Shown: positions 1 through 13,755 of the stretch, piece after piece
Numbering within the stretch: position 1 is the stretch's first letter
Layout: each line of letters begins with the position of its first letter
Source of the DNA: an uncultured Bacteroidales bacterium
GTDB taxonomy: Bacteria; Bacteroidota; Bacteroidia; Bacteroidales; F082
Length of the DNA stretch: 34,749 bases
Reading direction: 5' to 3'
Assembly: GCA_900317155.1 (NCBI GenBank)
Contig: ONFO01000046.1
Coordinates: 1 to 34,749 of the forward strand
Position numbers and translations under genes: made by a program
Notes under the pieces: model-generated
Told to the model about the DNA's origin: nothing
The model's database searches: none
What the model saw: the letters and a program-made list of their open reading frames with translations, nothing else

Positions 1-1
1 G

Positions 2-337
2 AACGATACCCCGACATCACCTTACAAGATGCGCCTTGTGGCCGACATGATCAGAGGCCAAAAGGTGGAGTTGGCACTGCACTCGTTGCAATACTCGACT
101 AAGGACGCCGCCAAGCCGGTTTACAAGCTGCTCCGTTCGGCCATCGCCAACTGGGAAGCCAAGAACGAAGGCAAGCGCGTTGAAGACAGCAACCTCTACG
201 TGAAAGAGATTTGGGTTGACGAAGGCCGTACGCTGAAGCGTATTCAGGCTGCCCCTCACGGACGTGCATTTCACATCCGCAAGCGCTCGAACCACGTTAC
301 GATCATTGTGGACAGCAGAATTGCTAACGAAGAATAA
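2..337 (+). CDS. rplV: 50S ribosomal protein uL22 (5' partial)
   Basis: The reading frame is open from base 2, so the start codon lies before the window. The visible 111 residues open with a [15 protein letters not shown] stretch typical of L22. They end with the conserved [15 protein letters not shown] hairpin, whose loop lines the exit tunnel in the 50S subunit. The match to Bacteroidota L22 is continuous with no gap. It is followed 24 bases later by rpsC, the usual S10-operon order. Confidence 0.97.
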
Positions 338-361: not shown

Positions 362-994
362 ATGGGACAAAAAACTAATCCTATAGGTCTTAGACTGGGA
401 GTCATCAAAGGATGGGACTCCAATTGGTTTGGCGGAAAAGACTTTTCGGCTAAGCTCGTTGAGGACGACAAGATCCGCAAGTATCTGAACGCCCGTCTCG
501 GCAAAGCCGGCATCTCAAAGATCGCCATCGAACGTTCCTTGAAGTATGTCACTGTCACCATCTTTACTGCTCGTCCGGGCATGATCATCGGCAAGGGCGG
601 CGAGGAAGTCGACAAGCTGAAGAAAGAACTGGTGAAGCTCACCGGCAAGGAAATCCAAATCAACGCTTCGTTCGGTACCATGAGAATGGGTGCCGAGGGC
701 ATCAAGATCTTGATTTCGGGTCGTGTCGGAGGTGCCGAAATCGCACGTTCCGAGTCGTACAAGGAAGGCCGTATCCCGCTGCACACGCTGCGCGCCGACA
801 TCGACTACTCCTTGGTGGAAGCCCATACCTCATACGGCCGTCTCGGCATCAAGGTGTGGATCTGTAAAGGTGAAATTTATGGTAAGCCCGAGCTGGTTCC
901 CACATCCGTCAATGCTCCTGCTAAGAAGCAAGGTGGCGCCCCGCGTCCTGCCGGTCGTGGTCCCCGTCGTGGTGGTGAAGGCAAACGTAAATGA
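362..994 (+). CDS. rpsC: 30S ribosomal protein uS3, internally shortened
   Basis: This is the head protein of the 30S subunit near the mRNA entry site. The N-terminus ([13 protein letters not shown]), the KH-domain GxxG ([12 protein letters not shown], about residues 75-86) and the C-terminal domain ([33 protein letters not shown]) are all normal. The protein is 210 residues long. Aligned by eye with E. coli S3, only 5 residues separate QIN (99-101) from MRMG (107-110), where E. coli has 39. About 34 residues are therefore missing, in frame, at about base 665. The lost segment carries the conserved PELDA and FRRAMK motifs, including the counterparts of E. coli R131, R132 and K135. The rest of the gene is intact, so this is either a real internal deletion or an assembly error. 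The tail is rich in G, R and P. Confidence 0.93.
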
Positions 995-8491: not shown

Positions 8492-8791
8492 ATGGCAAAA
8501 AACAACAAAGTTACAAGGAAACGTGTTGTGAAGATTGAAGCAACGGGCATGGCTTTCGTGAAAGCTTCGTTCAACAACGTCATTGTTTCTTTGACCAACA
8601 ATGAAGGACAAGTCATTTCTTGGGCATCAGCAGGTAAGATGGGCTTTAAAGGCTCAAAGAAGAACACACCATACGCTGCTCAGATGGCTGTTCGTGCCAT
8701 CCACTCGATGGGTGTTGAGGTGACCGAAATCATCGACGTCACACCGCTGCCGCACAATGGATGCCGTCCTCCAAAACGTAGAAGAGTGTAA
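8492..8791 (+). CDS. rpsK: 30S ribosomal protein uS11, internally shortened
   Basis: The gene encodes 99 residues instead of about 129. The N-terminal part ([42 protein letters not shown]) and the C-terminal part ([23 protein letters not shown]) are textbook S11. Residue A66 runs directly into [11 protein letters not shown] at about base 8690. Exactly 30 residues that normally lie here are absent: the helix after YAAQ, the next strand and the near-universal VKGPGxGRE motif. The frame is kept. S11 forms the 30S platform contacting 16S rRNA near the E-site mRNA, and the lost motif is part of its core fold. This is either a true deletion or an assembly artefact. Confidence 0.93.
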
Positions 8792-12468: not shown

Positions 12469-13554
12469 TTATTCTCCTATAATTTGTTTCTTCATAGCTT
12501 CGAGAACTTCTTCCGGGGTGTGGATGATGCCACCGACGCGGCCAAAGTGTTCGGCCTTGGCGCGACCGTTGCAGGCCAGCAGCACGTCTTCGATCATCTG
12601 ACCACAGCTCAATTCGACTGAGAGGAATCCCTTGACACCCTTGTCGATGAGGTTACGGATGGCTTGGGTGGGGTAGGGCCACAGGGTGATAGGACGGAGC
12701 AGACCGACCTTCAGACCTTCGGCGCGACCAAGTTGCACCGACTTCTGGGCGATACGGGCGCTGGAGCCGTAGGCAACGAATACGTATTCGGCATCGTCGC
12801 AGTCGATCATTTCGTAGCGGACTTCGTTCTTGGTCACTTCGTCATATTTGCGTTGGAGGTGACGGTTGTGCTCTTCCATGCGGGCGGAGTCGAGGTCCAA
12901 AGAGGTGATGACGCGGTGTTGCGTGCCACGCTTGCGGCCTGTCAGTGCCCAAGGATACTTGGCTTTGATTTCCTCTTCGGTGAGGCGGGCTTTTTGCTCG
13001 GGCAGAACAACCTTTTCCATCATCTGGCCGATGGCACCGTCAGAGAGGATGCACACTGCCATTCTGTACTTGAAGGCCAGTTCGAAGCCCAGCGGCACGA
13101 AGTCAGCCATTTCCTGGACGGAAGCAGGGGCGAGGACGATGTTACGATAGTCACCGTTGCCGCCACCTTTGGTGTTCTGGAAATAGTCAGCTTGTGAGGG
13201 CTGGATGGTACCGAGGCCCGGGCCGCCACGCACCACGTCGGCGAAGACGCAAGGCACTTCGGCGCCAGCGATGTAAGCCAAACCTTCTTGCTTCAGGCAC
13301 ACGCCTGGGCTTGACGAAGAGGTCATGACGCGCTTGCCAGCAGCACCAGCGGCGTACACCATGTTGATGGCTGCCAATTCACTTTCAGCTTGAAGAACGA
13401 CCATACCGGTGCGTTCGTAAGGGTTCTGTTCCGACAGATACTCGATCACTTCCGACTGGGGGGTGATAGGATATCCGAAATAAGCATCGGCGCCGCAGCG
13501 GATGGCGGCTTCGGCCAATGCCTCGTTACCCTTCATCAGTTTTAATTCTCCCAT
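12469..13554 (-). CDS. vorB: 2-oxoacid:ferredoxin oxidoreductase, alpha subunit (VorB/KorA type)
   Basis: The 361-residue protein starts MGELKLMKGNEALAEAAIRCGADAYFGYPITPQSEVIEYL, the classic alpha-subunit N-terminus. It continues with GMVVLQAESELAAINMVYAAGAAGKRVMTSSSSPG and a C-terminal transketolase-like domain (VGLLRPITLWPYP). It is the type commonly named VorB in Bacteroidales. The ferredoxin-like gene lies 21 bases upstream. The enzyme probably feeds acyl-CoA and reduced ferredoxin into anaerobic metabolism. Confidence 0.93.
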   Translation of the reverse strand: MGELKLMKGNEALAEAAIRCGADAYFGYPITPQSEVIEYLSEQNPYERTGMVVLQAESELAAINMVYAAGAAGKRVMTSSSSPGVCLKQEGLAYIAGAEVPCVFADVVRGGPGLGTIQPSQADYFQNTKGGGNGDYRNIVLAPASVQEMADFVPLGFELAFKYRMAVCILSDGAIGQMMEKVVLPEQKARLTEEEIKAKYPWALTGRKRGTQHRVITSLDLDSARMEEHNRHLQRKYDEVTKNEVRYEMIDCDDAEYVFVAYGSSARIAQKSVQLGRAEGLKVGLLRPITLWPYPTQAIRNLIDKGVKGFLSVELSCGQMIEDVLLACNGRAKAEHFGRVGGIIHTPEEVLEAMKKQIIGE

Positions 13555-13575: not shown

Positions 13576-13755
13576 TTAGACAATTGGTTGGATTACAGGG
13601 CTTTCTTCGGGGTTCGCCATGAAGGCGTAATTGTAACCTTTTCCGTTTACTTCTTTTGCCAGTTCGATGACCTTGCATGGGCAGGCTGTGATACATACGC
13701 CGCAGCCTTTGCAACGCTCGATGTCAACGACGATGGCTCCTCTGAATTTTGCCAT
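13576..13755 (-). CDS. Ferredoxin-like delta subunit, shortened to one 4Fe-4S cluster
   Basis: The 59-residue gene starts ATG at 13755 and stops TAA at 13576. It reads MAKFRGAIVVDIERCKGCGVCITACPC, giving one complete CxxCxxCxxxCP motif (C15, C18, C21, C25). NGKGYNYAFMANPE follows, where the delta subunit normally continues into a second CxxCxxCxxxCP motif. Instead it ends ESPVIQPIV. Family members of about 75 residues carry two clusters, so the second is lost here. The other two frames downstream do not restore it. The operon is otherwise intact. Confidence 0.85.
   Translation of the reverse strand: MAKFRGAIVVDIERCKGCGVCITACPCKVIELAKEVNGKGYNYAFMANPEESPVIQPIV

Follow-up and report, generated by a model that had tools for sequence, protein, structure and literature searches.

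We consider it highly probable (about 0.9) that the short ribosomal protein uS3 (S3) encoded by rpsC in the window, that is, the whole 34,749-nucleotide stretch analysed, which makes up contig C61 of the draft genome G000, is an error of that draft, produced by local mis-joining during short-read metagenome assembly in DNA that is conserved among relatives. The gap is real in the assembled sequence and almost certainly not in the organism, whose S3 is most likely of the ordinary kind, with about 244 aa. G000, to all appearances a metagenome genome, comprises 3.80 Mb in 65 contigs, with computed figures of 96.8% completeness and 3.0% contamination. The relatives with which it was compared are drafts too, and the strongest DNA matches outside conserved operons in two 20-kb searches were mostly of 70-89% identity. 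Throughout, G, L and C numbers denote genomes, fetched loci and contigs, respectively, and the coordinates of the features discussed are collected in the table.

Table. Features of the window and of contig C20 of the same draft that bear on the short S3 (window positions unless another contig is named).
Feature	Position	Strand	Remarks
Contig start	1..99		Same sequence as the 99 bases that end C62; first gene cut there
rpsC (uS3) ORF as assembled	362..994	+	210 aa, 34 residues short, from translation, profiles and relatives' alignments
rpsC join	664..665	+	102 bp of 29/29 fetched relatives missing; 1 base common to both flanks
rpsK (uS11) ORF as assembled	8492..8791	+	99 aa; 90 bp (30 residues) missing at about 8690, in frame
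Ferredoxin-type gene	13576..13755	-	62 bp missing at about 13607; broken frame, second cysteine motif gone
rpoB and rpoC breaks	contig C20, about 43041 and 45855 (L175)		

The first-pass annotation of this DNA had described an in-frame loss of 102 bases, or about 34 residues, near base 665 of the window, and the comparison with relatives that it had proposed bears out this description. In the translation of 362-994, QIN and MRMG are separated by ASFGT, the five residues it had counted between the two motifs. Of the 29 fetched relatives, 17 entered the protein alignment, in which this interval takes 39 residues; the other 12, lying on the opposite strand, were left out of it. The DNA alignment places the 102 additional bases after base 664 in all 29 fetched genus-mates, and against locus L006, exactly 34 residues are missing while both flanks are residue-identical, so that there is no compensating change in the remainder of S3. 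The gap takes away the last part of the KH domain (KH_2) together with the first part of Ribosomal_S3_C, the Pfam profiles being matched at 1-69 of 78 and 21-83 of 83, respectively; a bacterial uS3 should have both domains complete, and the window protein has neither. Taken as a whole, the protein still passes the curated cut-off of TIGR01009 (220.1 vs. 114.5 bits). It resembles this rpsC_bact family (PF07650 KH_2 plus PF00189 Ribosomal_S3_C) in that both flanks are matched and the usual operon neighbours surround the gene, and it differs in lacking the 34 residues of the domain junction, with the result that the profile is matched as two stretches. We take these neighbours to be rplV and rplP from their translations. 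A further part of the early description that held is the loss of an arginine-bearing segment of the FRRAMK type: the YRRAIK of the relatives falls within the missing segment, and window S3 is therefore devoid of these basic residues of the mRNA entry. Its placement relative to bacterial R131 and R132 is assumed, and K135 stems from the first-pass annotation. Following PMC6283612, in which mutation of Arg131/Arg132 of bacterial S3 lowered ribosomal unwinding, we take the YRRAIK segment as their equivalent.

No other genus genome with a match on both flanks shows the shortened form, and G000 also stands out by its score in the phylum sample. Searching 99 genus genomes gave a match in 61 and none in 38. 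In 59 of those 61, one match lay on either side of the insert, and the open frames among the matches listed ran to 243-252 aa; the remaining two were G000 itself and G087, the latter represented by one 30-residue fragment. In the phylum sample, TIGR01009 matched 374 of 395 genomes, and among the matches listed, the best one of G000 was the weakest (1.3e-31, in two pieces), the next-weakest being those of G476 (7.3e-54) and G243 (2.4e-68), for which the comparison is one of scores alone. The distance from ARPG to LHTxRAxI was 104 residues in 100 of 109 loci vs. 70 in window S3; in this count nine loci were unparsed and at least two genomes apparently entered twice, L054 and L055 seeming to be contigs of L011 and L017.

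The S3 gene is not the only one broken in this draft. In the window, rpsK shows its deletion against 5/5 relatives in pairwise chains and against all four covering relatives in the DNA scan described below; the S11 profiles are matched as two stretches, and the protein falls below the cut-off of TIGR03632 (119.7 vs. 154.5 bits) and above that of NF003698 (125.3 vs. 111). The ferredoxin-type gene adjoins genes for 2-oxoacid oxidoreductase subunits and, going by these neighbours and its motif, would be korD/vorD-like; its loss and frame break are seen against 3/3 relatives, and the match to the dicluster profile extends over only half of it. On contig C20, an exact 40-bp tandem duplication shifts the rest of rpoB into another frame, and the adjacent rpoC lacks 55 bp and is likewise broken in frame. 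A genome search for rpoB gave two matches in G000, one to each half of this broken gene, and found no other. Thus, three of the five indels break the frame (rpoB, rpoC, and the ferredoxin-type gene) and two keep it (rpsC and rpsK), and the flanks of the other deletions have 0 (rpsK), 3 (ferredoxin-type gene), and 0 (rpoC) bases in common. The profiles of S8, S4, and RpoA of the window are each matched in one unbroken stretch, and therefore the conserved genes of C61 are not all affected.

The frequency of such events was compared between G000 and six relatives by a DNA scan, run with one script throughout, that counted an indel if it reached 10 bp and was borne out by all covering relatives, two or more in number. 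G000 has five genome-specific clean indels in 76,110 bases, each scanned against 3-6 covering relatives, and the six relatives have two in 305,646 bases, namely -72 bp in G052 and -11 bp in G061. The one-sided binomial p of 0.005 for this difference is only indicative: the rpsC event from which the search set out is among the five, and the rpoB region was chosen since rpoB was examined; in other words, C61 and C20 were not blind choices, with rpsC given and rpoB sought. Stretches of C21, C24, C32, and C62 of G000 gave zero events in the same scan, the targets of which lay outside the G000 stretches of C40, C15, and C25 and most of one further fetched set. Several G000 events fell below the rule and were left uncounted: an additional 22 bp on C20 at about 34210 (L174; 3 of 4 covering relatives), +11 at 2196 (1/6) and +72 at 13317 (1/3) on C61, and two on C38 (1/1 and 1/2). 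As for the two events in relatives, the -72 bp of G052 (contig C5, about 19794, L035) lies in frame in an oxidoreductase alpha-subunit gene, corresponding to about 13317-13390 of the window, and is possibly the same kind of error, the 72 bp being kept by G000, G066, and G018; the -11 bp of G061 (contig C199, about 3195 of L053) is found in a 122-aa gene of the ribosomal operon against 6/6 others. A count of breaks by tblastn gave 3 of 141 loci in G000 (rpoB, rpoC, and, weakly, a short ORF of C62), and among the relatives 0/108 in G065, 1/114 in G066, 0/91 in G018, 0/73 in G089, 1/23 in G061, and 0/109 in G052; it missed rpsC and rpsK, and the DNA scan, which is without the C62 and G066 breaks, was used instead.

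The ends of the contigs also bear the marks of the assembly. C61 starts inside a gene, presumably rplV-like, right at the point of its 99-base overlap with C62, and among the matches listed a second exact 99-base overlap joins C25 and C40, the same 99 starting bases are shared by C9/C62 and by C6/C65, and other contig ends match over 71 and 97 bases; the contig-end scan otherwise consisted mostly of self-matches of one stretch reading as N. Ends of exactly 99 bases are consistent with de Bruijn assembly at a k-mer size close to 99. Judged by the longest exact match, the lost segments of rpsC (155) and rpsK (148) stand at the 85-86th percentile and that of the ferredoxin-type gene at the 64th, this scoring having covered these three sites; this gives only moderate support to extreme conservation as the trigger of the breaks, the rpsC and rpsK segments being above average without being extreme and the ferredoxin-type segment hardly above it.

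In Chen et al. 2020 (PMC7111523), local assembly errors without read support are described in metagenome-assembled genomes (MAGs), as are scaffold joins that retain duplicate sequence. The breaks of G000 resemble what that paper describes in the wrong sequence at the join, in the duplicate kept where joined pieces overlap, and in overlaps between contig ends that come close to the largest k-mer in length. In contrast, the duplicate-sequence case of the paper has Ns at the join, whereas the G000 stretches compared have none, and the errors there were judged by read support, those of G000 by the assembled sequence. As is to be expected of a local error of this type, the rpsC indel is specific to one assembly, and it is accompanied by several further breaks, some of them in essential genes.

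Our proposal is that contigs would end or tangle where the DNA of co-occurring relatives is nearly identical, and that pieces may then be joined end to end with the bases between them lost, as in rpsC, rpsK, the ferredoxin-type gene, and rpoC, or with the overlap left in twice, as in rpoB. Cells depend for life on an RNA polymerase whose beta and beta-prime subunits are both intact. At least the break in rpoB is therefore necessarily an error, and the rpoC break is very probably one too. We read the rpsC and rpsK breaks alike since they have the same form, being clean, with 0-3 shared bases, specific to this draft, and placed in conserved operons. The first-pass annotation had offered an assembly collapse as the alternative to a living cell with such an S3; its suspicion of the assembly is upheld by the additional breaks, while the term collapse is not quite right, given that flanks with one common base indicate a join that lost bases and not a collapsed repeat, and repeat collapse was rejected on this ground. 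Several points tell against our explanation. For a de Bruijn assembler to make a join on 0-3 shared bases, either spanning reads or a later joining step would be required, and neither was seen; the joins are without Ns, the ferredoxin-type segment is hardly more conserved than average, some ends match over 71 and 97 bases, two of the indels are in frame, the relatives' drafts also carry such events, and S8, S4, and RpoA are intact.

That the flanks of the deletions have so few bases in common is also what would be expected if chimeric library molecules, made by template switching during PCR or amplification, had become the assembler's consensus in an otherwise normal organism, since a de Bruijn assembler must have met each join somewhere. 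We regard this as improbable, because chimeras should be random and rare at any one site, and five of them dominant in conserved genes would be unlikely without a cause in the assembly; furthermore, no hairpin favouring a polymerase jump was seen at rpsC, where the fold is no better than that of shuffled sequences (z-score 0.26), and jumping over a hairpin was rejected. We infer, then, that mis-joining rather than chimeric reads is the origin of the breaks. As to a chimera of two species at the rpsC join, the differences upstream and downstream (1/302 and 9/322 for L005, 1 and 8 for L006, 6 and 6 for L004) point to no single donor.

That a cell lives with a truly deleted S3, without the linker of the KH and C-terminal domains, the start of the latter, and the mRNA-entry arginines, would accord with the preserved frame, with the unchanged flanking residues, and with the genome search, in which the second full-length rpsC that the first-pass annotation had thought of was not found in G000. 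We nevertheless hold it very improbable, and so too that the organism encodes a 210-residue uS3 without these arginines while the remaining breaks are separate errors, given that frame-broken rpoB and rpoC and an rpsK 30 residues short make the same draft untrustworthy at such sites. Moreover, the 59 genus-mates in which both flanks were matched are all free of the deletion, and the 373 further genomes matched in the phylum sample all scored better than G000, with G476 and G243 judged by scores alone. The completeness of 96.8% leaves room for missing contigs, and hence for the window rpsC being a decayed duplicate of an intact gene on an unbinned contig, which we think hardly credible: the usual operon neighbours are present, a DNA search for a second copy of the stretch was negative, as was one for the lost 102-bp segment elsewhere in G000, and rpoB would require the same excuse. 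Local mis-joining thus remains our preferred reading of the short S3.

In summary, universal genes in draft genomes from metagenomes can show in-frame losses that mimic exciting variants, and a draft with a completeness of about 97% can still contain such errors; here, a check of rpoB, rpoC, and further core genes in G000 sufficed to unmask the S3 gap. If true, the short S3 would challenge the view that cells cannot do without the S3 residues at the mRNA entry. As biology, the short S3 of this draft does not matter.
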